Below, piece after piece: positions 2,194 through 25,095 of a stretch of DNA of 25,207 nt (positions within the stretch are counted from its first letter, which is position 1; each line of letters begins with the position of its first letter). The DNA comes from Baffinella frigidus (Eukaryota > Cryptophyceae > Cryptomonadales > Baffinellaceae), in contig MU646313.1 in assembly GCA_026770585.1 (NCBI GenBank), forward strand, positions 180,580 to 205,786. The letters run 5' to 3'. The notes below the pieces were generated by a model that had not been told where the DNA came from, did no database searches, and worked only from the letters and a program-made list of their open reading frames with translations. Made by a program: the position numbers and the translations under genes.

Positions 2194-4913
2194 ATGGCTG
2201 GGGGGGGTGCGGACGTAGCGCTGGCGCTCGAGACGCTGACGCTCAAGGAGACCTGCGCCCACTGCGGCAAGCAGCGTTCTTCGCTCAAGCGCTGCTCGCG
2301 CTGCAAGCAAGTCTCCTACTGCGGGGCGGAGTGCCAGAACGCGGGCTGGAAGAAGCACAAGAAGGCGTGCATGTCTCCTGAAGAACGAGAGACGTCGCTC
2401 AAGGATATCTTCCTGAAGATAGTAAACCCTGACCCCTAAACCCTAAACCATAAACCATAAACCATAAACCATAAACCATAAACCATAAACCGTACACCAT
2501 AAACCATAAACCATAAACCATAAACCATAAACCAAAAGCCATAAACCATAAGCCATGAACGCTAAACGCTAAACGCTAAACCTTGCACCCTAAAACCTAA
2601 ACCCTAAACGCCAAAACCCCAACCCCAACCCCGAAACCCTACACCAGGTAGCGGCAGATGAAGCGTCGGACTGGCGAGGCGTGCTTGCGTGGGAGGGGCG
2701 CATGGAGGAGATCATGGTCAATCGGCCAGATTCCGTGTGCGAGTTCATCCTCCTCCGCTTTGCCGCAGCACACACGCTCCGGATGAAAGATACGACTGCG
2801 AGTCTGGTTGACACCATCAAGGAGACGGGGGAGTTTGACTGGGGCAGCGGGGATCTGGGCCAGTCTGCGAGAGCTTTCGAAACTCTGGAAACCAGGCGCA
2901 TTGCACTGCTGGGCAAAATGCTGCGTTTCCGGGATATGGGCGAGGCGCAGTGTCTCCTAGGCGAAGGTCTGTTGGCACAGGGAAAAGCTGCATCTTCAAG
3001 CATGTACCTGCAACAGGCGCGCGACGTCGGCGCGGCGCACGGCTTCTTCTCGGTGGAGTGTCGCGCGTGTCTTGGCCTCGGGCAACTAGCAATCTTGGCG
3101 GGGCGCAGCGACGAGGGGCTTGATCTCCTCCGAAATGCTCTCGCTGCGGTCCCGCTCGATGAGGACCAAGGGAAAACCTCTGAGATGACGATCCTGACAC
3201 GGTTGACGGACGAGCTGATCAAGACACACGCGTTCGACGAGCTGGAGACGTTGCAGGCGCGCTATCGCACGGTGGCCAAGGCGGAGTCCCGCAGAAAGGG
3301 GCAGAACATTTGCTGGGAGGAGATGTGTGCAATCTACAGCAGCGCGCGCCTTCACGAGGTCCTTCTAGCTCTGTCTCAGTCTATTTGGGGCCATCCCTTT
3401 CATGAGCACGGGCTCTTTCCCGCTGCAAAGTTGACGGATTTGTACCGTACACGCAGCATGTCAACTTGAGAATAGTAGGTCCGTGTGCATCCTCATTGTC
3501 GTGATATGGTCATCAGTACAGGGGTATCTGGGCTATACAGAACCAGAACTGAAGAACACAGACCGGATTTGGGCCCCCCGTTTTCTTAATTTAGTACCAG
3601 AGGGTTGACTTAATCTTGCGTTGAGTCAACCCTCTGGTACTAAATTAAGAAAACAGACACCGACCGATGTCGGAGCACCCGTGTTCTTATAGCCCAGCTA
3701 CCCCTGTACGTAGCTGATATGCTGACACTAATTAAGTATCAGCCTCCGCCTGATATAACTGATATAAAAGTGCTGATATGCCAAGCTTAGTGAGAGAAAG
3801 ATTGTTGCAGCTCTTTCTCTTCTTGAACCCCCCTCCCACTCCCACTCTGCACCCTCAGGGGTGGCCGCGGCCTGCTAGGCCCATTAATAGTCTTTGGTGC
3901 TTTGGTGCTTTTATTTACACTCACATCGAAGGCCACAGCCCACCTCACTCTTGAGGAGTTGGGCGTAATCTACGGGTGAGTTCCCCGATCCTGCCCATTA
4001 AGGCTCGATCGAGCCCCCTTTTCCCTAGTCAACTCGAGTTGCCTAAAAAAGTTGACTGAGATCGTCTGACTTCGCCGTCTGGCTCGTCGCGGTCGTGTTT
4101 GTCAATTTATCCACCCTCCCTCCCTCCCTCCCTCTCTCCCTCCCTCCCGCCCTCCCTCCCTCCCTCTCTTCTCTCTCTCTCTCTCTCATCACGCCGTCCC
4201 CGTGTCGTCCCAGCGCACACCAAGCCTGCGTGGGTGAATGCATGGCGGGCGATCCTACCCCTTAAGTGACCAGTAGGCTCATACGCCCTACGGTAGGGTC
4301 CTAGGACCTGCCTAGAGCGAGTTAGGGTGAATATTCACCCTATGGCCACTTAAGGGGTATATCGATACGCTGGGGCATGCCCCACTTTGGACTACCTCTT
4401 TAGCCGCGATCCTCTGTACCGGGAGGCTTGACGTGATCCGAAAGGAAGCATGGCCTTTCTACAGAACCAGTTCCGGTGTCCACCTATGTTGGGAGCTCGA
4501 AGAACATTGAGGACCTGAAGGTCGGGATCGTTGAAGCTCTCTCTTCTTGATCCTCCCCCACTCTAAAGGCACATTTATTGGATTATGTCTCAGTTTGGGG
4601 GTTGGCGTTGGAGCCATTTCGTACTTTTAGGGTTTAGAATACCAGAATGTGTACCGGAAATCCTATGCGTAGCGAAAAATAAATCTATAAGGTGACGCCA
4701 TGAACTCTGCAGGCACACGGGAGGCCCGAAGAGGCCGTGCAGGAATGGCGCCTCCTCCAGGACCTTCCCCGCGAGAACCCGGAAGCTGTCTGGACCATGC
4801 CTCATGGGCGCGAGATGTTCGAAACAGAAGCCGGCTTTCGGCTCAAGTTCCACGATCCGGCCACTTCGGAGAGGGAGCGCAAGTTGATTGCGCAGCTGCC
4901 ATGGTACTTGTAG
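2194..4913 (+). CDS. MYND zinc-finger protein with TPR-like repeats, three exons
   Basis: The model has exons 2194-2421, 2648-3358 and 4713-4913, with both introns in phase 0; the protein is 379 residues. The ATG at 2194 (GCAATGG) is the first in frame. Exon 1 carries a complete MYND finger with ligands C21, C24, C34, C37, C43, C47, H55 and C59, normally a protein-protein contact module. Exon 2 is helical and TPR-like, with segments such as FRDMGEAQCLLGEGLLAQGK and GFFSVECRACLGLGQLAILA. Exon 3 continues the helical part from AHGRPEEAVQEWRLLQDL and ends QLPWYL-TAG. Without the second splice, the frame would run into transposon sequence and stop at 3469 with an unrelated tail. The joined ARLHE/AHGRPEEA boundary fits the family as I know it from algal genomes. 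Function beyond scaffolding is unknown. Intron 1 is telomere-like; intron 2 holds several mobile elements. Confidence 0.85.
2422..2647 (+). repeat. Intron 1 of the MYND gene made of telomere-like heptamers
   Basis: The donor is ATA/GTAAACCC and the acceptor CCCTACACCAG/GTA. Almost all of the 226-base intron is degenerate CCCTAAA, mostly the variant ACCATAA in tandem at 2445-2535. The acceptor AG comes straight out of a heptamer variant. Confidence 0.8.
3366..3483 (+). mobile_element. Family H foldback element, right end truncated
   Basis: The sequence CTCTGTCTCAGTCTATTTGG through CAACTTGAGAATAGT is shared with copies at 21273-21409 and 23028-23159 and a fragment at 24833-24906. It lies just inside intron 2 of the MYND gene, eight bases after the donor, and would encode the false tail if the intron were read through. 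The right terminus (GAGGCAGAG) seen in the other copies is missing. Confidence 0.7.
3517..3708. mobile_element. Family E foldback element, complete
   Basis: The termini are TACAGGGGTATCTGGGCTAT and TAGCCCAGCTACCCCTGTA. A long inner palindrome has arms TTAGTACCAGAGGGTTGACT and its complement. The TA at both ends fits a TA target duplication. It has no coding capacity. A second copy at 14888-15302 is interrupted by other elements. It lies in intron 2 of the MYND gene. Confidence 0.85.
4108..4188 (+). repeat. CCCT/CT microsatellite
   Basis: A run of CCCT units passing into CT units within intron 2 of the MYND gene, about 520 bases before its acceptor. Confidence 0.9.
4258..4357. mobile_element. 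Family C foldback element, copy 1
   Basis: The ends CCCCTTAAGTGACC and GGCCACTTAAGGGG are flanked on both sides by TA. The inner part carries CTACGGTAGGGTCCTAGGAC. Its left arm, read on the minus strand, is an empty version of the site where a family D element sits inside the copy at 15068-15279. Confidence 0.85.
4368..4540 (-). repeat. Family B repeat
   Basis: On the minus strand this matches 12140-12290: GAGCTCCCAACATAGG, then a GGACACCGGAAC-like part, GGAAAGCCATGCTTCCTTTC-like, then CCTCTTTAGCCGCGATCC-like. Families A and B share the CTCCCAACATA core and the CCTTTAGG start, so they are probably branches of one family. It lies in MYND intron 2. Confidence 0.7.
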
Positions 4914-5138: not shown

Positions 5139-5230
5139 CCCCCCCCTAGGGACCACCGTAGGGCCATAGGCATAGGCCTACTGTAGGGTCCTATGGGGGG
5201 GGGGGTTCTCATGAGCGAGGTACCCCTGTA
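5139..5230. mobile_element. Family D foldback element, left end missing
   Basis: This copy has the poly-C/poly-G core and the right terminus GAGCGAGGTACCCCTGTA but no left terminus. Confidence 0.75.
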
Positions 5231-5235
5231 GAGCC

Positions 5236-5342
5236 TACAGGGGTACCTCGCTCATAAGAAACCGCCCCCCTCCCTAGGACAACCATAGGGCCCTACATGT
5301 AGCTAAGGGGGAGCGGTTTCTTATGCGCGAGGTACCTCTGTA
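5236..5342. mobile_element. Family D foldback element, complete
   Basis: The ends are TACAGGGGTACCTCGCTCAT and ATGCGCGAGGTACCTCTGTA. Between them are short poly-C and poly-G runs and CCTAGG/CCTA motifs. It sits five bases from the previous copy. Confidence 0.85.
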
Positions 5343-5443
5343 GTGTGTGGGGTTCCACTATAGGCGCGCCGGGAGGAGCTCTCCCAGGACACCGAGTAAA
5401 GTCACTCCGCACCTAGTTGCTTCCAGAGGCGCCGGGACGCGTC

Positions 5444-5565
5444 TACAGGGGTACCTCGCTCATAAGAAAACGTCTTCCCCTAGGAGCCTACAGTAGGCCT
5501 ATCCCTAGGGCCCTACGATAGTCCTCCGGAGGGGGGCGTTTTCGTATGAGCAAGGTAGCCCTGTA
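5444..5565. mobile_element. Family D foldback element, complete
   Basis: TACAGGGGTACCTCGCTCAT at the left and GAGCAAGGTAGCCCTGTA at the right, the right end with two changes. There is no open frame. Confidence 0.85.
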
Positions 5566-5838
5566 GACGCACCTCACAACGCGTCTCGGTGGACCCTTGA
5601 CCACTGGGCTGCTGTGCGCGGCCGCACCGAGGTCCGTTTATTTTCGTGGTACTAATTAACAATTACGTGGTACAAAGACTTGTTATTCACCGATAGTTTC
5701 CTACTGGGAGGCGCCTGTGCAGGTCGCTACTGGCCGCGTCCCGGCGCTGAAACGGGTTTTCTTTATTCACACATCACGGAGTACGAGCCGAGCACAGCGC
5801 GTTCTCCGCGTGTGTCTGCTTAAGGCTCAACTACCCAT
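5566..5838. other. Spacer without recognised gene
   Basis: I see no open frame, splice-bounded exon or repeat unit I can support in this 273-base stretch between two family D copies. Confidence 0.4.
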
Positions 5839-5961
5839 TACAGGGGTACCTCGCTCATGAGAACCCCCCCCCCCCCCGTAGGACCACCGTCGGGCCCTAG
5901 TTATGGGCCTGCTGTAGGGCCCTAGGTTGGGGCGGTTTCTGGTAAGCGAGGTACCCCTGTA
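5839..5961. mobile_element. Family D foldback element with long poly-C
   Basis: TACAGGGGTACCTCGCTCAT at the left and AAGCGAGGTACCCCTGTA at the right. The left arm contains a run of about 14 C. Confidence 0.85.
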
Positions 5962-13122: not shown

Positions 13123-13701
13123 ATGATCAAGCGGTCGGCTGCCTTCTTGGTTGGGACCCACGCTGTGTTGGCCGCGGCCAGCATGGGCGCCGGTACTTTC
13201 TCTCCACCAAGAATCCCAGCACCAGCTGCGGTTGAGGCCGCCAACCCAAGATGCCTTAGTTGCTCTGCTCCAGCTCAGCTGTCCAAGGTCGCTGGGAAAA
13301 TGTACCGTGGGGGAGGGCTCGACGCCGCGTTTCTCTCGCCCGGGGTGGTATTTGAGGACCCGGCCGTTTGCTGCGTCGGCACGGTCGAGGTGCAAGAGGC
13401 TTTCCGCGCGCTGCACGCGGCAAGTCCGGAGTCCTTGGAGGAACCCCGTCTCGTTGTGGACGGCGACAACGAGGGCGCGACGGCCGTCTTCGCCCTTCGC
13501 CAGCGCTACGTCGGCTTCCTCCAGGTGGACAGCACGCTGCACATTCACACCGCGGCCGACGGGCGCATCAGTCGGTTTGAGGAGCGATGGAACGGGACTC
13601 CGCTTTGGAAAGCGGCGCCATTCCGCTGGTCGAGGAGGCTCAACGGACTCCTGAGCAGCGCGCTGACGCCGCTCCTCGTTACAGGGGTACCTCCCTCGTA
13701 A
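13123..13701 (+). CDS. SnoaL/NTF2-like fold protein, probably plastid- or secretory-targeted; 3' end from a transposon
   Basis: This is a single frame of 192 codons with an ATG start. Residues 1-40 (MIKRSAAFLVGTHAVLAAAS onward) look like a signal peptide followed by a Pro/Ala-rich stretch, as in plastid leaders of secondary algae. From about residue 58, MYRGGGLDAAFLSPGVVFED and later FEERWNGTPLWKAAPFRWSR fit SnoaL/NTF2-like proteins of photosynthetic eukaryotes, which usually lack known catalysis. The sequence ends naturally at LSSALTPLLV. The last codons (TGVPPS) and the TAA come from a family D element that inserted at the TA overlapping the final GTT/ACA. The native stop has been displaced; a short native tail may be lost. 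Fold assignment is from pattern recall. Confidence 0.75.
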   Translation: MIKRSAAFLVGTHAVLAAASMGAGTFSPPRIPAPAAVEAANPRCLSCSAPAQLSKVAGKMYRGGGLDAAFLSPGVVFEDPAVCCVGTVEVQEAFRALHAASPESLEEPRLVVDGDNEGATAVFALRQRYVGFLQVDSTLHIHTAADGRISRFEERWNGTPLWKAAPFRWSRRLNGLLSSALTPLLVTGVPPS

Positions 13702-13803
13702 GGAACTGCCCCCCCCCCCAGGACCACCTTAGGACCCTATGCATGGTCCTAGTGTAGGGTCCCAGGGCGCTTTCTTATGAGCGAGGTTCCCATAGGTCCC
13801 TAC
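13680..13803. mobile_element. Family D foldback element closing the SnoaL-like gene
   Basis: The left end TACAGGGGTACCTCCCTCGT supplies the final sense codons and stop of the gene. The right end is decayed (GAGCGAGGTTCCCATAGG). Confidence 0.8.
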
Positions 13804-13921
13804 AGGGATCTGTAGGTAGCTACACCGTGCTACTGGAAAGTCACACCCCGCTCTATCCTCTAACCGATCTTGGATTCCAAGACCGACGGTAATCCTTTTC
13901 AGATTCCCACGACTGCTGACT

Positions 13922-14071
13922 TTATCTCAGAAAACGAGTTTTAGAACTCGTTTTCTGAAGTCAACCCCCCTACAAATTCGTCAACTTATTCTTCACTCTC
14001 CGCATAAGTTGACACTTTTGTAGGGGAATTGACTTAAGAAAACGAGTTTTAGAACTCGTTTTCTGAGATAA
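13922..14071. mobile_element. Family F element with hairpin ends, copy 1
   Basis: 150 bases, TTATCTCAGAAAACGAG to CTCGTTTTCTGAGATAA, flanked by GACT on both sides. Each end is itself a hairpin (AAAACGAGTT, loop TTAG, complement), and the middle (GTCAACCCCCCTACAAATTC region and complement) forms a third stem. There is no coding capacity. Confidence 0.9.
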
Positions 14072-14261
14072 GACTGATTAGAGAAAAAATAAAGATTTTC
14101 CGGGTACGAAACGCGCCCGGTTGAGCTACCGTCCCCGTACACAACCTGCGCGAGTTAGGCACCTGTGGTGGGACTCACTCCTCAACAGGCCACCAACTCA
14201 CGCACGGCACACACGGGGCGAGGCCAGAACAACATTTGACTCAAATGACATGGCCACCATG
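14072..14261. other. Spacer without recognised gene
   Basis: No repeat unit or splice-supported exon is seen between the family F and family D elements. Confidence 0.35.
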
Positions 14262-14382
14262 TACAGGGGTACCTCGCTCGTAAGAAACTGCCCCCCCCAT
14301 AGGACCACCATAGGGCCCTAGGCATAGGCCTACTGTAGGGTCCTAGGGGGGTGCGGTTTCTTATGAACGAGGTACCCCTGTA
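14262..14382. mobile_element. Family D foldback element, complete
   Basis: TACAGGGGTACCTCGCTCGT and GAACGAGGTACCCCTGTA, with the best preserved CCATAGGGCCCTAGGCATAG core. A family B repeat starts directly at its right end. Confidence 0.9.
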
Positions 14383-14445
14383 CAGAACAAGTTCCGGTGT
14401 CCGCCTATGGTGGGAGTTGAAAGAACCTACAGGACCTAAAGAACG
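14383..14445 (-). repeat. Family B repeat, partial
   Basis: CAGAACAAGTTCCGGTGTCC and GGGAGTTGAAAGAACCTACA, the complement of the family B core. Confidence 0.7.
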
Positions 14446-14539
14446 GTGTGCCTCTGCAAGACGCTCCCTGCCACCCTGGCATGTCCCGAGTCTTCCTGTT
14501 GGTGCTGTGCCGGCGGCGTCTAGGAACCAACGCAGTCAG

Positions 14540-14642
14540 ATTGGGGGGGGGGGGGGGGGGGTGCATCGAGTGAGGGGATATCTGGGGATACAACCCCGTG
14601 TAAAGCCACTCCGGCCATCCTACACGGGGTTGTATCCCCAGC
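14540..14642. repeat. Poly-G run and 21-base inverted repeat
   Basis: A run of about 18 G is followed by arms GGGGATACAACCCCGTGTA (14584-14602) and its complement (14621-14639), extendable by two pairs, with an 18-base loop. Confidence 0.8.
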
Positions 14643-14689
14643 GGTGGGGCAATCTTGGACGACGCTGCTTGGCCCGGGGGGCGTGATGA

Positions 14690-14790
14690 GATCCGAAAGG
14701 AAGCATGGCTTTTCTGCAGAACCAGTTCCAGTGTCTGCCTATGGTGATAGTTGAAAGAACCTGAAGGACCTCAAGGAAGACGGTGAAAGA
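14690..14790 (-). repeat. Family B repeat, partial
   Basis: GATCCGAAAGGAAGCATGGC, CAGAACCAGTTCCAGTGTCT, then AAGGACCTCAAGGAAG. Confidence 0.7.
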
Positions 14791-15067
14791 CCGCGCGTGG
14801 TGGCGTGTCTCTGAGCGTGGTTGATTACTAGGTCTGGCCGAGTCAGGTTGAATACATGGATGTCTGGGCTATCTACATGTATGGCCCTACAGGGTAACTG
14901 GGCTAATAACTTATAAGAAACCATAACTTCAGAACACAGACCGGATTCGGGCCCCCCGTTTTCTTATTTTAGTACCAGAGGGTTGACTTATTGTTACGTT
15001 TAGTCAACCCTCTGGTACTAATTGAAGAAAACATACACCGACCGATGTAGGAGCACCCGCGTCCTTA

Positions 15068-15279
15068 TCCCTTAAGTGACCAACGGGCGAATAATCGCCC
15101 GTGGAAGCCCTAGGCAGGTCCTAGGGCCCTACGGTAGGGCGTATGAGCCTACAGGGGTACCTCGCTCATAAGAAAACGCCCCCCCCCTAGGGCCCTACAG
15201 TAGGGCCCTATGGGGGTCCCTAGCTAGGGGGAAGCGTTTTCTTATGAGCGAGGTACCCCTGTACTGGCCACTTAAGGGA
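15068..15279. mobile_element. Family C element inside family E, split by family D
   Basis: The ends TCCCTTAAGTGACC and GGCCACTTAAGGGA sit between duplicated TA at 15066-15067 and 15280-15281. The intact E copy has CTTATAGCCCAG at this place, so the TA duplication is seen directly. Confidence 0.9.
15150..15263. mobile_element. Family D element inside family C
   Basis: TACAGGGGTACCTCGCTCAT to GAGCGAGGTACCCCTGTA. The surrounding family C sequence reads GTATGAGCCTA/CTGG when closed up. The copy at 4258-4357 has that uninterrupted sequence on its minus strand. Confidence 0.9.
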
Positions 15280-15302
15280 TAGCCCAGATAGATACCCCTG
15301 TA

Positions 15303-15360
15303 CGGTGGTCCGTCCTAGCTAGGGGGGGCGCGGCTCCTTTTTAGCGAGGCATGCCTGTAG
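15303..15360. mobile_element. Family D remnant
   Basis: CGGTGGTCCGTCCTAGCTAG, a G run, then TTAGCGAGGCATGCCTGTA. Confidence 0.6.
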
Positions 15361-15441
15361 ATCGTGGCCACGTTAGTTTTGACCAGAATAAACGTGTTTT
15401 CTCCTTTGTTCATCCATCACGTCGCTACCGAGATCTGTCCG

Positions 15442-15568
15442 AGTAAAGTTGAACGCGTCGTAGTTTCACCCCCCCCCGAAATGTCACAGGTAAATTTCAT
15501 GGGTGGGGGTGTCAAATTTACCTGTGAATTTTCAGGGGGGGCGAAATAGTGACGCGCCCAACTTTACT
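15442..15568. mobile_element. Family G foldback element, copy 1
   Basis: Inverted ends AGTAAAGTTGAACGCGTC and GACGCGCCCAACTTTACT. The inner stem is poly-C then CACAGGTAAATTT, paired with AAATTTACCTGTGAA and a G run. The inner stem is shared with 17391-17546, and the outer ends resemble 23490-23584. Confidence 0.8.
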
Positions 15569-15915
15569 AGGGATAGATCGAGGCTACCCCCACACCCACG
15601 CCCCGCGTCCAACCCCAACCCCGATCGATACATACATTCCCAAACTGAAACGGCCCGCGTTCTCTGCGGGCCTTACGGCCCGCACTCTCGCTCCCTCTCA
15701 CAGACCTACATCCACACACACGAACGCACCCGCGCGCTCCGTCTCACAGACCTACACGGCGCGCGTGGCAGGCACGCGTCTCGCCGCGACCCCCCCAGCG
15801 CATGCCTCGGCCTTGCGCGTCACGTGACGTACCGCAGCCCGAAGCGTACCCTCGCGGCACGTTACGCCCCCCCCACACCGCGCTGCGCCCCCCACCCCCC
15901 TACTGACTGGAGCCT
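15569..15915. other. C-rich stretch without recognised gene
   Basis: Open plus frames exist but are Arg/Pro/His/Thr-rich, as expected from C-rich DNA. CAGACCTACA occurs twice (near 15700 and 15747). I see nothing supported. Confidence 0.35.
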
Positions 15916-15995
15916 TCAGGGCCCCTGGATGAGGTTCTCGAGGCGGGCGCGCACGGCCGCGTAGTCTGTCCCGTTGTCCTCCGAATCGTCCCCCC
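15916..15995 (-). CDS. Terminal exon with acidic C-terminus
   Basis: On the minus strand, acceptor GCCTCATGACAG at 15996 is followed by two bases and then codons GGDDSEDNGTDYAAVRARLE and NLIQGP-TGA. It could end the gene whose exons lie at 17136-18795, but the intervening exons are not resolved. At least five further copies of this exon's first bases plus acceptor lie upstream (16050-16660). Family unknown. Confidence 0.5.
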
Positions 15996-16049
15996 CTGTC
16001 ATGAGGCGATGCATTTGTCAGTGATGTGTTTGTTAGGCGGTGCACAACC

Positions 16050-16660
16050 TGATGAGTCGGTCCCGTTGTCCTTAAGGGGTCGGTTAACGTGGGCTTACTG
16101 GAGCCGTTGATGGTCAACCGGGCTCTAAAACGATTTTAAAAGCGATTTCAGGACTTTTAAAACCTAAGAATGTTTTCCATTATAAATTTTGTACCAAAGT
16201 TACAACTGCGTTAACGTAAGCTTTTTGCATGATCCTCTTGGTCGCCCCCTCCTGCGCGAGAACGTGCGTGTGCCGAAATCAGGTTCTTGCACACGCCAGA
16301 AAACAGGGAGCTGTGTCGACTACAGGGGTACCTCGCTCATAAGAAACCGCCCCCCCCTAGGACCTCTGTAGGACCCCAGACATGGTCCTGCTGTAGGGTC
16401 CTAGGGGGGGGCTGTTTCTTATGAGCGAGGTACCCCTGTATCGGCCCCGTTATCCTCTGATTCGTGACCTCCAGCCATGTGGCGATGTATTTGTTAGGCG
16501 GTGCACGCGGTCCCGTTATCCTCTTGGTCGTCCCCTCCTGCCGCAGGAGGGGGGGCACAGCCAGGCCGAAATAAGAAGGCACGGTGGTGCAGAAAACAGG
16601 GAGCTTCGTAGTCGATAGTCGGTCCCGCTGTCCTCTTGGTCGTCCCCGCCTGCCATGTGG
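16050..16660 (-). repeat. Array of acceptor/exon-start echoes
   Basis: Read on the minus strand, a unit with GGCAG/GAGGGGACGACCAAGAG and GACAACGGGACC recurs at about 16656-16620, 16542-16508 and 16255-16231, with diverged copies at about 16467-16441 and 16072-16050. It matches the start of the terminal exon at 15995 (GDDSEDNGT as GDDQEDNGT). Other shared parts are AACAAATACATCGCCACATG and AGCTCCCTGTTTTCTG. Confidence 0.7.
16321..16440. mobile_element. Family D foldback element, complete
   Basis: TACAGGGGTACCTCGCTCAT and GAGCGAGGTACCCCTGTA, inserted within the echo array. Confidence 0.9.
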
Positions 16661-16990: not shown

Positions 16991-17135
16991 AAAATCAGGG
17001 ACAAGCACAACTGAGCTTGAAACGACTGACACAGTGCCTACCTCGGCGTTATCCACCCACTAGGCACATAAAACGTTGGGGCTGCCGTACTACGTTCAAT
17101 AAATCTCCAATAGCTCCAATAGCGCTGAAACGTAC

Positions 17136-18795
17136 CGAGACCCGAACGGTGTGGGGTGCTGCCCGTCCTTCTGAGATCGCTGGCGATACCGGAACCTGCA
17201 AGCAATCACACCGGTCTTCCCTAAACCCTAAACCCTAAACTCCAAACCCGACACGAGAAAACACGCAGCGAGGCCTGAGGCGGCGTATTGGATGAGAGTG
17301 CGTCCCGTTCCTCTGAGAACGAAGGCGTGAGAACGCTTAAAACCCCTAGCAGAAACTCTGGGGGAAGCGATGACGCTCGTCTCTAAGTTGAGCTCTGTCC
17401 CACTTGATTTGGGCTCCCCATCAATTCGCCCCCCCCCCAAATTTCACAGGTAAATTTTGACCCCCCCCCCCCCCCATGAAATTTACCTGTAAAATGTCGG
17501 AGGGTGGCGAATTGATGGGGAGCCCAAATCCAAGTGGAACAGAGCTAGTAAGTACGCACCGTTGCCTGCGGCAGCGTCTTTCGTGAGAGTGTTTCCCGTT
17601 AGCGAGGTCGCAGACATGGTGACGAATAAACCCCTATGGAAGCCATGGCACTGTTCTTTGAGTACGCACCGAGGTCGTCTTTGGTGCGGTGCTTCTCACG
17701 GACATGACAGCCTAACCGATTCTCACCCAGAACCGGGCCGAAAATGCTTTCGTAGCCCGCTGGGCAGGTGCGCACCGAGGTCGTCTTTGGTGCGGTGCTT
17801 CCCGTTGGCCTGCCACATGCGCTTCGACTCGTCGACTGACTTCTCGGGCGGCAGGAACAGCGTGCCCTGCGATCCAAGACACGCGGTTAGTCAACTGTCA
17901 CGTGACGGGAGGAACAGCGTGACGGGAGGGACAACGTACCCTGCGCTCAAGACACGCGGTTGGCTGAACCGGACATGGGACAGCGATCAAGACACGCGGT
18001 TGACTGAATGCGGTCGAGGCAGCTGCGCGGTTGACTGAACCGGACGGGGTTTGTAGTTCCTCCTCCTTGCACGACAGTTGACTAATCACACGGGGCGCAG
18101 GTACTAATCCTGCCCACCCTGCGATCAAGAACGAGACAGGCGTGGTTGACTGAACCGGGCGGGACTTGTACCGGGGATCGAACCCACGCCCGCACGCTCA
18201 CGACACCAGGTTGGATTGAAGGTTCAGGGATTAGGGTTCAGGTTTTCGGGTTGCGGGTTTCGGATTTATGGCTTAGTTGATAGTTTATGGTTTATGGTTC
18301 CGGATTCCGGGTTTAGCTAGAACGATGTGAGGGGGACCTCAGGAATGAATGAGGTCTTGCCTAAACCCTGAACCCTGAACCCTCCGCCCTGAACACTAAA
18401 CCCTAACCGTAAACCGTAAACCCTGAACATTAAACCGTAAACCCACCTCGGGGGTGAAGGAAGTCTTATACGAATTTGACTCGGTGAAGTCCTTCAATGG
18501 TGTATGGTTTATGGTCCAGGGTCAGGCTTCAGGGTTTGGCTAGAAAGATGGGAGGGAGACCTCATGAATGACGGAGGTCTGATCTAAAGCCTGAACCCTA
18601 CACACTAAACCCTGGACCCTAAACCATAAACTCTGCACCCTGAACCCTAAACGCTGAACACTAAACCCTGAACCCTAAACCCTGAACCCTGAGCCCTAAA
18701 CCGTGAACACTAAACCCTAAACCCACCTCGGGGATGAACGACGTCTTGTACGAATTTGACTCTGTGAAGTCTAGGATCTCCTCGGGGTCCAACGC
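17136..18795 (-). CDS. Multi-exon gene of unknown family with a duplicated 45-base exon
   Basis: Phase-consistent exons in transcription order: 18795-18727 (23 codons, phase 0/0; LDPEEILDFTESNSYKTSF), optional 18491-18447 (15 codons, 0/0; DFTESNSYKTSFTPE), 17866-17776 (30 codons plus one base; LFLPPEKSVDESKRMWQANG then KHRTKDDL), 17312-17248 (ALSSNTPPQASLRVFSC) and 17195-17136 (VPVSPAISEGRAAPHTVRVS). Donors are GTGGGTTTAGGG, GTGGGTTTACGG, GTGCGC, GTTTGG and GTACGT; acceptors are CTAAACCAG, CATTGAAG, GGATCGCAG, GTTCTCAG and GCTTGCAG. The first three exons join into a credible hydrophilic protein; the last two are weaker. N-terminal exons were not found. I do not recognise the family. Confidence 0.55.
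17391..17546. mobile_element. Family G foldback element, copy 2
   Basis: Arms of about 40 bases start AGCTCTGTCCCACTTGATTT and run through CCCCATCAATTCGCC. The centre has poly-C and CACAGGTAAATTT with its complement, as in the 15442 copy. It lies in an intron of the minus-strand gene. Confidence 0.85.
17555..17700 (-). repeat. Echoes of the KHRTKDDL exon end and donor
   Basis: Bases 17697-17670 (minus) repeat the last 28 bases of the 17866-17776 exon (AAGCACCGCACCAAAGACGA) with donor GTGCGTACTC. A third donor-like GTGCGTACTTAC is at about 17560. Confidence 0.75.
17880..18160 (-). repeat. Tandem repeats carrying acceptor copies
   Basis: On the minus strand GGTTCAGTCAACCGCGTGTC followed by TTGATCGCAG or a variant recurs four to five times. 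Copies at about 18122, 17943 and 17867 end in GCAG/GG; the last is the acceptor used for the 17866 exon. GTCACGCTGTTCCTCCCGTC at about 17920 also echoes the exon start. Confidence 0.7.
18165..18205 (-). other. tRNA T-arm-like fragment
   Basis: The minus strand reads GTGGGTTCGATCCCCGGTAC, matching the B-box/T-arm of tRNA genes. No D-arm, anticodon arm or matching acceptor stem lies upstream, so it is a fragment or tRNA-derived repeat end, not a tRNA gene. Confidence 0.45.
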
Positions 18796-18880
18796 CTGGT
18801 TTAGGGTTTAGGGTTTAGGGTTCAGGGTTCAGGGTTCAGGGTTCATGGTTCATGGTTTATGGTTTATAGTTTAGGGTTTG
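18205..18880. repeat. Alternating G-rich and C-rich telomere-like blocks
   Basis: On the plus strand the order is G-rich 18218-18320, hinge, C-rich 18361-18440, exon copy, G-rich 18498-18540, hinge, C-rich 18590-18722, exon, G-rich 18797-18875. The two non-exonic hinges share GGAGACCTCATGAATGACGG-like sequence, itself weakly palindromic. On the minus strand each intron starts G-rich and ends C-rich. Confidence 0.85.
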
Positions 18881-18959
18881 ATCTCATGGGCCGACTGCGT
18901 GGAACCCAGCAGCGAACGTAAATTTAACGTTCTGTCTTGCTCCGAAATTGAGATTCTGT

Positions 18960-19125
18960 TTGGACACCAGCGGCAAGTAGCTTCTAGCTTCGAACGCGGC
19001 GACACCCGAATATCTTCGGGAAAACAGCTGCTAGCTTCGAGACGACACCCTCTCGGGTCAAGCGGGTCAAGGAGGAAACAGCTTCTGGCTTCGAGGAGAC
19101 ACCCTCGCAGGTCTACGGTTTAGTG
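18960..19125 (+). repeat. Minisatellite with GCTTCTAGCTTCGA units
   Basis: AGCTTCTAGCTTCGA, AGCTGCTAGCTTCGAGACGA and AGCTTCTGGCTTCGAGGAGA alternate with ACACCCTC and GGGTCAAG. It is related to the array at 19228-19745. Confidence 0.75.
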
Positions 19126-19225
19126 TTCAGTGTTTAGTGTCAAGTGGTTCAGTGTTGAGTGTTTAGGTTTCGTGTCTAGTGTTCAGTATTCAGTATTCAG
19201 TATTCAGGGTTTACGGTTTAGGGGT
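19120..19225 (+). repeat. TTTAGTG/TTCAGTG repeats
   Basis: Heptamer variants of the telomere-like unit (GTTTAGTGTTCAGTGTTTAG, AGTATTCAGTATTCAG). Confidence 0.75.
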
Positions 19226-19227
19226 CA

Positions 19228-19745
19228 AGATGGTTGAGGAGAGGGTCGCATGCCTCAACGTGGGCTGTTGGGGAAATGTTACGCTTCCAACAACCAGCTG
19301 CTAGCTTTGAGAAAACACCCTAGCGGGTCACGAGGGTCGAGGCGAGGGTCGCACGCGCCAACAACCAGCAGCACATAGCGTCTGGCTTCGAAAGTGATGA
19401 CACCGTAGAGGGCCAAGATGATTGATGAGAGGGTCGCATGCCTCGACGTGGGTCGTCGGGAAATTTCGAAGGTCAAGATGATCAAGAGGGTCAAGAGTGT
19501 CAAAACGCTCAAGAGGGTCAAGAGGGTCAAGAGGGTCAAGAGGGTCAAAACGCTCAAGAGGGTCAAGAGGGTCAAGAGGGTCAAGAGGGTCCAGGAGAGG
19601 GTCGCATGCCTCGCCGTGGGCTGTCGCATAATTTTGCGCCTCCAACAACCATTAGCAAGAAGCTTCTAGCTTCGAAAGATGGTTGAGGAGAGGGTCGCAT
19701 GCCTCGACGTGCGCCGTAGGGAAATTTTGCGCTTCCAACAACCCC
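19228..19745 (+). repeat. Five diverged units of about 85-100 bases with an internal 9-base minisatellite
   Basis: Units start near 19228, 19334, 19417, 19588 and 19677, marked by GGAGAGGGTCGCATGCCTCG and by TTGCGCTTCCAACAACC. Within the third unit, GAGGGTCAA is repeated at 19486-19590. Open frames here (RVKRVKRVK, EGQEGQEGQ) follow from the 9-base period. Confidence 0.85.
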
Positions 19746-19769
19746 GAGTACCGTTCCGCGTCCTGCGAA

Positions 19770-19835
19770 GGGTTCAGGGTTCAGGGTTTCGGTTTCGAGT
19801 TTCGGGTTTCGGTTTTCGGTTTTCGGGTTTAGGAA
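19770..19835 (+). repeat. TTTCGGG-type repeat
   Basis: GGGTTCAGGGTTCAGGGTTT followed by TTTCGGG and TTTTCGG variants. Confidence 0.8.
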
Positions 19836-20011
19836 GGGTCCACTGCAATCCAGCTTCTGAAAACCCTGTGGCTGCGCGCGGTTGGTGGGGGGGGCGCGGG
19901 ATACGAGGTAACGAACAACCCTAACAGATATTCGTAACTTTCTTACGAATAAAAATATTGGTTGCGGGTAGCGCGCTTGGGCGCATCGTCAAATGCTCAG
20001 CGCACACCTCA

Positions 20012-20068
20012 CACCTCCCCCAGCCCTCCGAAGAGAGGGAACAGCGCATTTATCACGGATCGAAATGG
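20012..20068 (+). repeat. Copy of intron/acceptor sequence from 22925-23360
   Basis: CCCCCAGCCCTCCGAAG is shared with 22929-22945, and AACAGCGCATTT plus CGGATCG-like bases are shared with the acceptor of the exon at 23333. In the 22.9-23.3 kb version a family H element lies between the two parts. Confidence 0.55.
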
Positions 20069-20120
20069 CTTAAAGGCCTATCTAGGACCTGCTGCGAGAG
20101 TACTAACGAAGAAGAAAGGG

Positions 20121-20215
20121 GACGCTCGTAACCTCTCTATCTTGGAAGAGGACCGCGGTGTTCATCCGCGAGCAGGTGGAGGCTCACAACCTCTCTGTCT
20201 CAGGGGGAGGCGCGT
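20121..20215 (-). repeat. Echoes of the VLFEDKE exon end and donor
   Basis: Minus 20172-20133 repeats the end of the 20306-20250 exon (SRMNTAVLFQDRE instead of SLINTVVLFEDKE) with donor GTTACGAGC. Shorter copies of the GAGAG/GTTRTGAGC junction are at about 20189 and, with a destroyed donor, at about 20209. Confidence 0.75.
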
Positions 20216-20249
20216 AATCTCTCTGGGTTGCAGGGGGGGGGCTCGCAAC

Positions 20250-22024
20250 CTCTTTGTCTTCGAAGAGGACCACGGTGTTGATCAGCGAGCCGTCGCGTAC
20301 CCGCACCTGCCGCACCAAAAATTAAAAATTAAAAAACGGTCGAAACCCCTGCAGTCGTTCGAACGAAAATGCAACGCGCGAAATTTCTCGGGGCGTCGTC
20401 ACTGGCCGTACCGCTCAAACGGCTACGGGGCACCTTTAGCCCCGGATGCTGCAGAAACAATCCAAAATAAACAAAACGGTCGAAACCCCTGCAGTCTTTT
20501 AAACGAAAGCATCTGGGCCTATCTTTTCAGATTTTTCAGTTTTTCTCCTCTAGCCAGACCGCCACTCACCGAAAACGCAACCCCCTGAATGCAGCCGCGC
20601 CACACCTGCAGGGTGTAGATTCCCTCACTCTCCATGGACGCTCCAATCCCAGCATCTTGGCCCATCTTTTCAGAATGTTGGTTTCCATCCTCTAGCCAGA
20701 CCGTCAATCGCCGACAACGCAACCCCCTGCATATAGCCATGCCACGGACCCCCCTCACTCTCCGTGAACGCTCTAACCCGGAACCCTGCCCCATCTGCAG
20801 GGTGTAGATGTCCTCATTTTAGTGTGCGGGGCAACTCAATTTAAACCGCCCTTTATGCTATCTTAAGGGCGGTGACTCTCTTGTTTTTCTACAGTAGCTT
20901 CGACATAGCTTTGAAACATAGAAAACCCATCTCAAGATAGCAAAATCACGGTTTAAATTGAGTCGCCCCGCACATGAATTTGAAGTGACAGGATGAAAAA
21001 CGAAGAAAGCACGCACCTGGAGCGTGTAGATGCCCTCGCTGTCCGACCGCGGGTTGAAGAGCAGCACGAACACCTTCAACAGGTCCATCCAGCGGTCGTC
21101 GCTGTTCGGCTTCGGGAACCTGTGGCGCGGGTCGCGTCAGGCCTCCTGTGACGCCCAGGATGTCGAAAAGGCCATCTAACATGTAATAAATTTAGCTCTG
21201 CGTCTGAGCCGGGTTGACTGATCGCGGGGGGGCAAGCGCGCGGTCAGAGGAAGCGGCGGCGCGGAATGTCTACCTCTTTCGCAGTCTATTTGGGCTCACC
21301 AATTTGATGAGCCCGGGCTCTTTTCCGCTCCAAAGTTGACGGATTTGTAACGCCAACCCAGCCTAGCATGCCAACTTGAGAATAGTCGGCCAACCCGAGT
21401 GAGGCAGAGGAATCTCCTGTGACATGGAGGCGTCCTCTCGTTTGCCCAGGTCCTCAATCTGCCCTCCGCGGCGTGCAGGCAGCTCCACATACCCAGGTCC
21501 CTGCGCTCTGACATGATATTTTGGAGAGGGAAAGGCTCTTGGAAAGCTGCCGAGTGCGGGAAGGGACGCACTGGGAAGGTCGAGGGATCGCACGCTCGTC
21601 GTCCCATCCCGGTTGAAAGGCATCCAAGTTCGACGCCATGGAGAGGCCTCCGAGCCGGGCGCTCCTTCTTGCGGGAGGGCCATCGCGTAGCCTTGCGCCC
21701 CCTGTACCAGAGAAAAGAGCCGGATGGCGGGTCAGCGCATGCACGAGAGGGGTCCGCCGGCAATACCGCTCTCAATGCCCTCCACGACCTTGTGGTTTAG
21801 TACTGTAGTAGTTGAGAAGGGGGGTAGCGCGTGCGGGGACCGTTGGGGTTCGGAGGTCGGAACGTACCCCATGTTTGACAAGGGCCTCGTCGAGAAGAAG
21901 CCGCGCAGGCAGCTGAAGCGCTACGGAGGGCGAGCGCCGGTGCGGCGGGGGGCACGTATGCGGACGCAGAGTGCATGCAGGCTCCGATCAGCGCGACTAG
22001 CGAAGAGGTGCGCATCAGGGACAT
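20250..22024 (-). CDS. DUF3110-type plastid protein, multi-exon
   Basis: Exon 1, 22024-21868: ATG, then SLVALIGACMHSASAYVPP, a signal peptide with an ASA-type cleavage site and Ala/Ser/Arg-rich transit sequence, as in secondary plastids. Exon 2, 21701 to about 21493: acceptor TCTCTGGTACAG, phase 1, containing SMASNLDAFQPGWDDERA. Exon 21119-21017: KVFVLLFNPRSDSEGIYTLQ with donor GTGCGT. Exon 20306-20250: VRVRDGSLINTVVLFEDKE. The last two match the DUF3110 pattern (VLLFN..TDNEGI.TLQ, then VVLMFE), a family of photosynthetic organisms of unknown biochemical role. The join between exon 2 and the 21119 exon has a phase conflict, so a small exon is missing or an end is misplaced. The C-terminal part after VLFEDKE was not found. 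It is head to head with the next gene. Confidence 0.7.
20508..20817 (-). repeat. Tandem repeat of about 150 bases with exon-end copies
   Basis: Two units share GGCCYATCTTTTCAG, CTCTAGCCAGACCG and AACGCAACCCCCTG. Each carries a copy of the 21017 exon end: minus 20635-20606 reads ESEGIYTLQ with GTGTGG; minus 20817-20795 reads EDIYTLQ with the donor changed to AT. Confidence 0.7.
20823..20974. mobile_element. Foldback element J
   Basis: Ends TGTGCGGGGCAACTCAATTT and the complement AAATTGAGTCGCCCCGCACA, arms about 26 bases, 152 bases long, in an intron of the DUF3110 gene. Confidence 0.85.
21273..21409. mobile_element. Family H foldback element
   Basis: CCTCTTTCGCAGTCTATTTG to CCCGAGTGAGGCAGAG. 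It lies between exons of the DUF3110 gene. Confidence 0.8.
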
Positions 22025-22230
22025 CGAACTCGATGGCCCCGAGTCACGTCCATCATAAAGACGTCCATTGACGAGCTCTAAAACCACATTTTACAGTCGC
22101 TTTACAGATAAATGGCTCTAGTACAACAGAAAACCTCCAACGGCGCGACGCGAACGCCTCGCCAGGGCCACCACAGGAGGCTCGCCAGCGCCCACCGGCT
22201 GCCAGAATCGGCGATTTCGCAGGGCGCGCG
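22025..22230. promoter_or_regulatory. Divergent intergenic region
   Basis: This is the space between the minus-strand ATG at 22024 and the first supportable plus-strand coding sequence. I see no clear TATA box. A shared promoter is inferred from head-to-head layout only. Confidence 0.3.
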
Positions 22231-24639
22231 CGCAAGGGGCTGCTGAGGCTAAGGTGGCGCTCGGTGTGGCGGAAATCCTCGCGAGTGCGCTATCGGACTC
22301 AAGTGCGTCTGAAGGCGAGGTCGCGCGAAGATGTCACACGTCTGGCAGCCGCGCACGGCGCCGCCGGAGCTTGCCGCGGGCAAAGACCCGATGCGGTGCT
22401 GCCCTCTCCTCCACAAAGCTGAGAACAGAGGAGTCTGCGGAGCTTGCAGTTGTGGAGCTTGCAGTGGACCGCACGATGGCGCCGCATTGTACCGGGGCAA
22501 GGCTGCGTTCGGACCTCAAACAGTGTCCGGGCGTGGGTCCTGCGCGCACACAGTGCGATGCCCGCAGTGCCCTCAAAGCCATGACATGCCCTTTCAAGTG
22601 GTACCTACCTGCACTGCCAACCAGGATCCATGACCATCACCGCTCCGCTGCCCTCCCACCCGCTCATGCCCCAACCCGTCCCCTGCCGCGCAGGTATGGC
22701 ATGCGACAGTATGAAGCCGACAAGTCGCTGCAGGTTGTGCCTGTTCCACCACTCGGGACACCCCCCAGAACAAATCTTCGCCACCTTCCATCCCTCCCAA
22801 AGTTGACCACCTCGTTGTTCCTCCCAGAGCAAAAACAAATCGCCTCTCAGAACAAAAGTGCGCGGGGATTTGTTCCAGGACGGCAAGACTCCTTGATGAC
22901 TGGCGCCCTGGGACGGGGCGTAGCTTGCCCCCAGCCCTCCGAAGCCAAGTGTTTCTCTCAACGTGTTGTGTTGAGTGGTCCGGATTGGTACCGATGAGGC
23001 TTCGGAGTAAAGCGCAACGTCTGTCTACCTCTGCCGCAGTCTATTCGGGCTCACCAACTTGGTGAGCCCGGGCTCATTTCCGCTCCACAATTTTCGGATT
23101 TGTCCCGCGCACCCAGCATGCCAACTTGAGAACAGTCGGTCAACCCGAGTGAGGCAGAGCTAGGACGCCACTTGGCAGCGAGCAAAGACCTTTTCGCCTC
23201 GAATCCAAGGTGAAATTCCGGTTAGGTTCCAGGGCAATGGATAAGATTCTAGTACAAATCCTTTAGATGGACTGTATCCGTGAAGCCCCTGATGGATGCT
23301 AATTGGTTGGCTGACGCACCTTTCCGAAACAGCGCATTTTCTCCATCGCGGATGGACCGCTGACCAAGCAGCCCGTGTACGGCCGCCCGGTAATCCCCGA
23401 ACCGGTGTCCGTCTGTGTGTGGATGTCCGCGAATCGGCGTCTTTTCGTGTGTGGATGTCCTGCCTCGCGTCCATGTGTCTAGCTCTGCCTGAGTAAAACT
23501 GGGCGCGACATAAAACTCATTTAGAGCAGAAACTCCAACGAAATGGCAACTAAAATCCTTTTATGCCGAGCCCAGTTCTACTCAGAAACCATGCGAGATC
23601 TTGTAGTTTTGGTTCAAATAAAACTTCGGGTATGTCGACTTGGGGGATGTGGAGGGGATGTACTTCGGGTTGATTGACCCCTCTCGCGCTTTTCGGATCC
23701 TGTGAGGACTATCCTGGGACAGGCCGGCCCCCGTTGACTAATCTTGCCTCTCGCCAGCCAATAGCTCCAACGTCTGCCGAGGCGGGCCTATCCGCGGGTA
23801 GTCCTCACAGTTCCCGACACACAGGTTACGGCCTCGGCGCTGCTCGGGAAAGACAAGAACCATGAGGGGGTCACGTTCACGGCGAACATGCAGCCCAAGA
23901 TCGATGAGGGGCACTATGTCGAGGTGCGTAAACTTCTCCGGATTTCTGCTTTGGAAGTTTTTCTGTTTGATTTTGGCAACAACCTTCACCGCAAATCTTA
24001 CACGGCAAAAAACATTGAGAAAAGCAAAAGAAGGAGAGGAAGTGGCGCCAGGGCATTCCGTCAGGGTTTGGGGTGTAGGGTGTAGGGATTTGGGGGATAG
24101 GTTGTAGGATTTGGTGTGTAGGGTGTAGGGTGTAGGGTGTGTGGTGGTATAGAGTGGTAGGGTGTAGTTGGCAGGGTTTAGATGCCACCACCTGGGCGAT
24201 GTGGATCTGGCTTTATCTCAGAAAACGAGTTCTAAAACTCATTTTCTTAAGTCAATTCCCCTACAAATTTGTCAACTTATGCGGAGAGTAAAGAAGAAGT
24301 TGACAAATTCGTAGGGGAATTGACTTAAGAAAACGAGTTTTAGAACTCGTTTTCTGAGATAAGGCTCGTCCTGTTAGATTCCGGGAGTCTCACTGGAATT
24401 TAAGAAGGCTTCTTCATTTCCCGGCGTGTGTGCAGATTTTCTTCAACCCTGCACCCAAACCTTGGGCCAAACCCCCTAGACCCTAAACCCCAAACCCCAA
24501 ACCTCAAACCCTCAACCCTAAACCCTAAATCATACCCTAAACGCCACCCTACACCCTAAAACAGATCTTCTTCAACTGCGTAGACCTGGTCGAAATGTGG
24601 GTCGTCGAGCAGTTCGGACACCCGAAATCGCTCGCCAAG
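22231..24639 (+). CDS. Multi-exon gene of unknown family
   Basis: Well-supported exons: 22694-22733 (acceptor after a long pyrimidine tract, CCGCGCAG; YGMRQYEADKSLQ), 23333-23389 (RIFSIADGPLTKQPVYGRP), 23825-23923 (VTASALLGKDKNHEGVTFTA, then NMQPKIDEGHYVE) and 24565-24639 (IFFNCVDLVEMWVVEQFGHP, then KSLAK). Donors are GTTGTG, GTAATC, GTGCGT and GTTTAC. All junctions are phase 0 except the first, which joins an exon ending at 22600 (MTCPFK plus a split Trp) in phase 2. The coding frame before 22600 is open back to 22122, but its start and internal splicing are unclear. The joined protein looks soluble and moderately charged. I do not recognise it. The last intron contains G-rich then C-rich telomere-like repeats around a family F element. 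Confidence 0.6.
23028..23159. mobile_element. Family H foldback element, complete
   Basis: CCTCTGCCGCAGTCTATTCG to CCCGAGTGAGGCAGAG, flanked on both sides by CTA, which may be a 3-base target duplication. It lies in the intron between 22733 and 23333. Confidence 0.8.
23490..23584. mobile_element. Foldback element related to family G
   Basis: TGAGTAAAACTGGGCGCGAC and complement GAGCCCAGTTCTACTCA. The outer end resembles 15442-15568 but the poly-C inner stem is absent. It is intronic. Confidence 0.75.
23700..23810. mobile_element. Imperfect foldback M just before an acceptor
   Basis: CTGTGAGGACTATCC and GGGTAGTCCTCACAG, arms about 32 bases with several mismatches. It ends 14 bases before the 23825 exon. 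Its right arm contains the 18 bases shared with the 10655 minisatellite. Confidence 0.6.
24060..24180 (+). repeat. G-rich TGTAGGG block, 5' half of an intron
   Basis: CAGGGTTTGGGGTGTAGGGT and repeated GGTGTAGGGTGTAGG, downstream of the 23923 donor. Confidence 0.85.
24213..24362. mobile_element. Family F element with hairpin ends, copy 2
   Basis: 150 bases like 13922-14071 with the loop in inverted orientation, flanked by GGCT on both sides. It sits between the G-rich and C-rich halves of one intron. Confidence 0.9.
24430..24564 (+). repeat. C-rich telomere-like block ending at an acceptor, with echo
   Basis: CCCTAAACCCCAAACCCC and similar, ending CCCTAAAACAG at the 24565 exon. At 24437-24448, GCAG/ATTTTCTTCAAC repeats the acceptor and first 12 bases of that exon. 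Confidence 0.8.
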
Positions 24640-24659
24640 GTTTACCCCTCAGTCCCACA

Positions 24660-24831
24660 CGAGGGTATCCATGCGAACAGATTCATAAGTCAATTATTGG
24701 ATTATCGCCCAGGAAACACGCCAAAAGTCAGCAAATGATCACGTTTCCTCCCGGTTTTTCCGGGGGAAACGTGATCATTTCCCCACATTTTTTAAAAACG
24801 CCCTTTTATTCTGTTCGCATGGATAGCCTCG
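24660..24831. mobile_element. Foldback element K with inner palindrome
   Basis: Ends CGAGGGTATCCATGCGAACA and complement to CATGGATAGCCTCG. Inside, AAATGATCACGTTTCC (24733-24748) pairs perfectly with 24765-24780. Confidence 0.85.
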
Positions 24832-24832
24832 G

Positions 24833-24906
24833 GTGGTCTATCTGGGCTCTTTTCCGCCCCAATTTTGACGGGCGTTTACCGCGTACCCAGCATGTCGCCA
24901 TGAGAA
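24833..24906 (+). mobile_element. Family H fragment
   Basis: GGTCTATCTGGGCTCTTTTC to ATGAGAACAG, lacking both termini and directly followed by an exon echo. Confidence 0.6.
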
Positions 24907-25095
24907 CAGTTCGGACACCCGAAATCGCTCGCCAAGGTTCATCCTCGGAAGGGTTTGGAGTTGAGGGTTTGGAGTTGAGGGTGCAGGGTTCAGGGTTTTT
25001 CGTTGAGGAAGCAGGGTTGAGGGTGTAGGGTGCAGGGTTTGGAGTTGGGGGTGTAGGGTTGAGGGTGCAGGGTTCGCCAAGGTGCATCCTCGGAA
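24907..25095 (+). repeat. Exon-end echoes around a G-rich block
   Basis: 24908-24939 repeats the end of the 24565-24639 exon (CAGTTCGGACACCCGAAATC, then GCTCGCCAAG) with GTTCATCCTCGGAA. After G-rich GGTTTGGAGTTGAGGG repeats (24951-25072), TTCGCCAAGGTGCATCCTCG appears again at 25073. Confidence 0.8.

Follow-up and report, generated by a model that had tools for sequence, protein, structure and literature searches.

C-sense telomere-like arrays beside splice acceptors in a window of the Baffinella frigidus genome, and a proposed hairpin intron that is probably part of a longer intron

In a 25,207-nucleotide stretch of Baffinella frigidus DNA (the window, meaning the whole stretch that was analysed), the introns are read as ordinary GT/GC-AG introns, with telomere-like heptamer arrays in the C sense (CCCTAAA) adjoining four of the seven supported or predicted acceptors, where they would act as AG-free tracts, while a 235-base stretch put forward as a hairpin intron in an earlier note is predicted not to be an intron. 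This combined reading is considered moderately probable. The intron set comprises five introns of a minus-strand DUF3110 gene (I1 to I5), with junctions taken from the protein P0001, one intron of a MYND-finger gene (2422-2647) and one predicted intron of a plus-strand gene (23924-24564), the sites at 8139, 17247 and 23390-23824 being excluded as unsupported. The count of four in seven describes one window and seven introns, five of them from a single gene, and the acceptor at 24564 is placed by reading frame alone.

Pieces of the minus strand match the DUF3110 domain (PF11360), and the 126-residue protein obtained by joining them matches PF11360 at 9.9e-29. When some 5.8 billion proteins were searched, P0001 was 100% identical over the entire 126-residue query, followed in the hit list by P0002 (58%) and then by a protein of Guillardia theta (68% identity over 71% of the query). 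Exon limits were set at GT/GC-AG borders that preserve the reading frame, and six window exons, when joined with a translation script, reproduce the 166 residues of P0001 (a JGI protein) at 166 of 166 positions, stop included. The intron borders implied by P0001 are four GT-AG and one GC-AG (19703/19702), the I1 donor being 21571, and all five introns thus have U2-type borders (GT-AG or GC-AG) across which the frame is restored. P0001 sits on two contigs, the longest of 1,011 bp; as the gene spans 3.9 kb in the window and its introns are too long for a contig of this size, the P0001 sequence likely derives from spliced RNA or cDNA, and its agreement with the joined exons implies the removal of the five predicted introns from RNA. 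Upstream on the same strand, an open stretch (MSLMRTSSLVALIGACMHSASAYVPPAAP...) at 21869-22034 resembles a signal peptide followed by a plastid transit peptide, and the DUF3110 protein may actually begin there.

Table 1. Coordinates of the genes, introns, arrays and repeat copies discussed in the text.
Feature	Position	Strand	Basis
MYND-finger protein, exon 1	2194..2421	+	PF01753
MYND intron, GTAAACCC...CCCTACACCAG	2422..2647	+	Homologues contiguous across junction
MYND protein, exon 2	2648..3466	+	Homologue alignment
DUF3110, last exon of P0001, with stop	17723..17866	-	P0001 identity
DUF3110 intron I5, 860 nt, acceptor GGATCGCAG	17867..18726	-	P0001 junction
Second exon of the earlier note, partial tandem copy of exon d	18447..18491	-	84% over 133 bp; absent from P0001
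C-sense array, C arm of the earlier note	18493..18527	-	Array call
Array at donor 18726, G-sense on the coding strand	18578..18734	-	Array call
DUF3110 exon d, first exon of the earlier note	18727..18795	-	P0001 identity
C-sense array adjoining exon d acceptor	18788..18890	-	Array call
DUF3110 intron I4, 907 nt, GC-AG, acceptor CCCTAAACCAG	18796..19702	-	P0001 junctions
DUF3110 exon c, GC donor (GAG|GCATGC)	19703..19762	-	P0001 identity
C-sense array adjoining exon c acceptor (I3 end)	19760..19838	-	Array call
DUF3110 exon b	20250..20306	-	P0001 identity
DUF3110 exon a, start of DUF3110 domain	21017..21119	-	PF11360 and P0001 identity
DUF3110 exon 0, first Met of P0001 (MASNLDAF...)	21572..21639	-	Joined exons equal P0001
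Exon of plus-strand gene (VTASALLGKD...HYVE)	23825..23923	+	76% identity to P0151
Predicted intron with a palindromic element between a G-sense array and a following C-sense array	23924..24564	+	Donor side P0151; acceptor reading frame only
Palindromic MITE-like element inside 23924-24564	24213..24364	.	Sequence

The 235-base stretch 18726-18492 has the letters that had been described for it, beginning GTGGGTTTAGGG at 18726, continuing G-rich to 18578 and turning C-rich at 18527-18493, but its status as an intron does not survive comparison with P0001, in which donor 18726 joins acceptor 17867. The exon ending at 18727 is joined directly to 17866, with the junction reading ...SFIPE|GTLFLPPEK..., and the stretch is probably the first part of the 860-nt intron I5, as judged from this predicted junction. 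A next intron, said to start at 18446 (GTGGGTTTACGG) with the same G-then-C order, does show that order, but it lies inside I5 rather than forming an independent intron. The self-comparison identified 18771-18639 and 18491-18360 as the copies of a single tandem duplication (84% identity over 133 bp), and since both supposed introns belong to it, the order of the second is inherited from the first. The acceptor before exon d was correctly given as CCCTAAACCAG (18796), while the actual acceptor of I5, GGATCGCAG, is not heptamer-like. The copy of exon d begins 24 bases inside that exon and so comes without its acceptor. Mutually exclusive use of exon d and its copy was considered and rejected, as neither the acceptor of exon d nor its first 24 bases are present in the copy, and P0001 reads SFIPE and not SFTPE; an in-frame minor isoform using 18491-18447, which is preceded by TTGAAG, may exist. 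Tandem copies of exon ends within introns can thus pass for additional exons and introns in a reading of genes by eye.

Heptamer arrays, called where at least 19 of 28 bases match repeated TTTAGGG, occupy 3,449 of the 25,207 bases (14% of the window), long intergenic runs included, and they are not the product of chance, as the array calls in three mononucleotide shuffles came to 0, 0 and 29 bases. A C-sense array is located within 25 nt of the acceptor in I3, I4, the MYND intron and 23924-24564, where the call stops 19 nt before the acceptor, while a G-sense array is found this close to an acceptor in none of the seven introns. Three of the five array-bearing introns (I3, I4 and MYND) carry C-sense arrays only, amounting to 227 bases in I4 and to all 226 of 226 bases, with no G arm, in the MYND intron. 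No array adjoins the acceptor of I5, and 23924-24564 is the sole intron of the seven with both a G array after the donor and a C array before the acceptor, its G array beginning 132 nt past the donor. At the donors, one of seven has a G-sense array within 25 nt (I5) and one a C-sense array (MYND); at least one G-sense donor is reached by 155 of 819 coding-sparing and 1,107 of 3,000 unrestricted circular shifts of the array map, so that no donor bias is evident at this distance. Within 150 nt the counts are two of seven and one of seven, respectively; at least two G-sense donors are reached by 25 of 791 coding-sparing shifts and by 481 of 3,000 unrestricted ones, which is at most a hint of a G-sense bias. 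The claim that such arrays supply or adjoin splice sites holds at the acceptors (four of seven, all C-sense); the donors show no clear strand bias.

That the arrays are neutral bystanders, which proliferate in all the non-coding DNA of a repeat-rich genome and meet the four acceptors by coincidence or base rate, is unlikely but is the strongest of the alternatives. It is consistent with the share of the window that the arrays occupy and their long intergenic runs, with the frequency of local duplication in the non-coding DNA (398 of 2,127 probes) and with the skew in array strand. When added up, the array bases that are G-sense on the plus strand, and hence C-sense for the minus-strand DUF3110 gene, number 2,634 of 3,449, so that the base rate favours the C sense at I3 and I4. 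Circular shifts of the array map preserve this skew, as a plain sign test would not. At least four C-sense acceptors are attained by 58 of 3,000 unrestricted shifts (about 2%), but by only 4 of 819 coding-sparing shifts, in which at most 5% of coding bases lie beneath arrays, and the arrays touch acceptors rather than being scattered anywhere in the intron. Interstitial telomeric sequences are degenerate TTTAGGG arrays found within chromosomes in both orientations, whereas the arrays in the window adjoin acceptors in one orientation.

The sequence of the acceptor tracts suggests how the C-sense arrays may function. A splice acceptor requires an AG-free stretch past the branch point together with a branch-point-like word. 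At the four array acceptors the preceding AG-free stretch measures 78, 85, 93 and 83 nt, whereas I1, I2 and I5 have 21, 40 and 26 nt, and CTAA/CTGA words number 2, 6, 3 and 4 at the former versus 1, 0 and 1 at the latter. The last 60 nt before each of the four array acceptors contain no AG as they stand and 4, 6, 4 and 7 AGs if flipped. The corresponding native and flipped counts are 3 and 3 for I1, 1 and 1 for I2 and 1 and 5 for I5, and as the array-free I5 acceptor also rises from 1 to 5, the effect of flipping is not specific to arrays. C-strand telomere-like arrays may be tolerated or used as long AG-free acceptor tracts in a repeat-rich genome; the genome of Baffinella sp. CCMP2293 is given as 53.9% GC and 41.1% repeats in the available part of its description (PMC9756366), and the GC content of the window is 54.6%. 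The orientation would be kept as AGs are scarce on the C strand, which could also provide branch-point-like CTAA/CTGA words, while a decoy TTTAG|G acceptor would recur every seven bases on the G strand. Pairing of G arrays with C arrays would be a by-product of both orientations occurring within one transcript. Were the orientation bias found genome-wide, it would show a simple satellite at work as an acceptor tract, with the strand of the satellite a natural experiment on what acceptors need.

The two array acceptors outside the DUF3110 gene are supported to different degrees. The MYND protein belongs to a large family, with 601 proteins found at E ≤ 0.001; the 120 listed include four from Baffinella frigidus with 46-49% identity. 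All eight aligned homologues (of the 120 listed and 601 found) run across the MYND junction, one of them with one extra residue. The acceptor at 2647, named earlier as a heptamer variant, does end CCCTACACCAG, but the G-then-C rule fails in this intron, the donor side of which, left unnamed at the time, is C-rich (GTAAACCC). A dispersed repeat (CAGTCTATT...CAACTTGAGAA-like, recognised by eye) occurs at 3300-3480, where the MYND reading frame ends, and again at 21280-21390 and 23030-23140. The stretch 23924-24564 was accurately described as G-rich and then C-rich, ending CCCTAAAACAG at 24564, and P0151, the relative that supports its donor side, contains HYVEVRF twice, within an apparent unspliced intron. 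Two further donors that had been read as heptamer variants gained no support, as the open reading frame of the one at 8139 has no Pfam or PDB match and the one at 17247 (GTTTGG) falls past the point, 17723, where the P0001 reading stops.

Arrays might also have given rise to the introns rather than merely serving them. Insertion of arrays in coding sequence or at exon edges, by break repair or telomerase, with the creation of introns or new acceptors, is a rather improbable explanation of the data. The MYND intron, which is array throughout (226/226), accords with it, as does the C array at 24457-24562, which is flanked by two copies of CAGATYTTCTTCAAC matching at 14 of 15 bases, but no direct repeat above threshold is present at the MYND intron. 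These copies around the C-sense array before acceptor 24564 (24434-24576, plus strand) resemble a target-site duplication; the other array acceptors gave no direct repeats above threshold. A broader and likewise rather improbable proposal, given marginally more credence, is that introns in this lineage draw on telomere-like heptamer arrays as raw material, in which case a C-strand array inserted in or next to coding sequence could become an acceptor or a whole intron, telomeric addition at breaks would be an intron source and splicing would fix the orientation. A C-strand array would bring branch-point-like words and few or no AGs, and a small change could yield an acceptor such as CCCTAAACCAG. 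Such arrays would then bear on where new introns and acceptors come from.

Hairpin introns as originally proposed, with G-rich and C-rich arms pairing to draw the splice sites together, are a very improbable explanation. The supposed class, with G-rich sequence after the donor and C-rich sequence before the acceptor, is unsupported, given that acceptor 18492 of its leading example is unused in the P0001 reading, that I3, I4 and the MYND intron have C-sense arrays and no G arm, and that the donors show no clear bias. Folding against shuffled controls, which had been suggested as a check, gave low energies for the 235-nt and 641-nt stretches but no fold for the MYND intron. The 235-nt stretch 18726-18492 is predicted at -81.9 kcal/mol (z -2.93, 1 of 200 shuffles equally low) and pairs its own ends, though its acceptor is unused in P0001, while the MYND intron reaches -2.6 kcal/mol (z -0.06, 83 of 200 shuffles as low). 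The 641-nt stretch 23924-24564 is predicted at -290.8 kcal/mol (z -10.3, 0 of 20 shuffles) with its long palindromic element included; without the palindrome, 85 array-array pairs are still predicted from 24068/24559 inward, which favours pairing of the arms, but the donor is left 144 nt upstream of, and outside, the stem. When I5 (860 nt) is folded alone, its donor is unpaired in the best structure and 17880-17870, by the acceptor, pairs with 18693-18703, 23-33 nt from the donor, which would bring positions near both ends together and speaks for the hairpin proposal; this end pairing is lost once exon d and the end of I4 are included, with the acceptor then in a small local stem and the donor paired to the I4 acceptor region, a modelled arrangement that would hide both sites. 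When G and C arrays of the window that are unrelated to each other are paired, the 16 duplexes range from -47.4 to -137.8 kcal/mol, and as these energies are comparable, complementarity of the arrays is generic rather than intron-specific. The duplex across exon d has -121.2 kcal/mol, versus -56.8 kcal/mol for the arms of the 235-nt stretch, the C arm of which is about half as long. That the structure around exon d (18890-18578, z -8.3, 0 of 100 shuffles), in which the C-sense arm before and the G-sense arm after it pair across the exon as that duplex, governs skipping or circularisation of exon d is the least probable reading of all, as P0001 contains exon d and the loss of its 69 nt would delete part of DUF3110.

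The statement that no intron class of this kind had been described is, for hairpin introns in general, contradicted by published introns with paired ends (PMC8469720 and PMC4770533, in the parts available). The symmetrical stwintrons and sister introns of the Hypoxylaceae are GT-AG introns with terminal inverted repeats and possibly double-stranded intron RNA, and according to the accessible text their authors take expression data to strongly suggest that the symmetry is unnecessary for removal (PMC8469720). They form highly similar families with terminal repeats of 45-55 nt, and the portion of that paper seen here names no telomere-like arrays. Terminal inverted repeats of 45-55 nt are not found in the window introns, with I3, I4 and MYND having no G arm and the stem base of 23924-24564 lying 144 nt in. 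In the nonconventional introns of euglenids, RNA structure likewise unites the intron ends, but these have non-canonical borders, unlike the GT/GC-AG introns of the window (PMC4770533, available part). Introners are intron-creating repeats, of which 72 of 177 assessable families have terminal inverted repeats according to the accessible part of PMC9860276; the array considered here is by comparison a simple satellite, and no near-identical dispersed intron family was shown in the window. Telomere-type repeats at acceptors or as an intron source did not appear in the titles and abstract openings of the literature searched, which comprised few subscription papers.

The duplication of exon d is one of several local copies of exon ends. 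Twelve exons were considered, 11 of which have a real or predicted donor (three of these donors, in pB, pD and g8, are predicted, and that of the last exon at 17775 is unused in P0001) and nine of which were considered for acceptor-side copies. Copies of the exon 3' end are found downstream of six of the 11 (a, b, c, d, e and pD), with 12 copies within 17500-21120 (minus strand) and 24565-24939 (plus strand). Eleven of the 12 span the donor position and one stops short, while none is aligned to the 5' end of its exon. None of the copies carries its exon's acceptor. With a like threshold, acceptor-side copies occur at one of nine exons (e); the acceptor-side copy at 24564 scores 25, below the threshold of 26, with none of 277 controls as high. 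The P0151 relative seems to show similar exon-end copying within an intron. A copying mechanism directed at donors was considered and rejected, for random non-coding probes often have downstream copies too (398/2,127, and 109/345 within 17000-21700), in contrast to 7 of 188 wholly coding probes and none of 58 MYND exon 2 probes; the exon-end copies thus need no special mechanism and are read here as local tandem duplication that is tolerated where no extra exon results. Judging from the available part of PMC4974935, the tandem genomic duplication reported there similarly crosses an exon-intron boundary and recycles splice signals, but it crosses the acceptor and creates a new intron, whereas the duplications in the window cross the donor and leave copies without an acceptor inside an old intron.

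No tRNA was found in the window, Rfam gave no match, two predicted proteins had no match in the PDB, and no relative was found in the viral contigs and prokaryote genome contigs searched. One exact array pattern had no match in the viral contigs, and neither had two longer patterns from the MITE-like elements. Palindromic MITE-like elements with the end AGGTACCCCTGTA occur at 3517-3708, 5218-5961, 13680-16440 and elsewhere, and this end has 19 matches at up to one mismatch versus 0.05 expected. Additional long palindromic elements are located at 13921-14072, 24211-24364, 17391-17546 and 20823-20974. Two copies of the palindromic element beginning TTATCTCAGAAAACGAG were recognised by eye, one of them within 23924-24564, and two other palindromic elements lie in or beside the DUF3110 gene.
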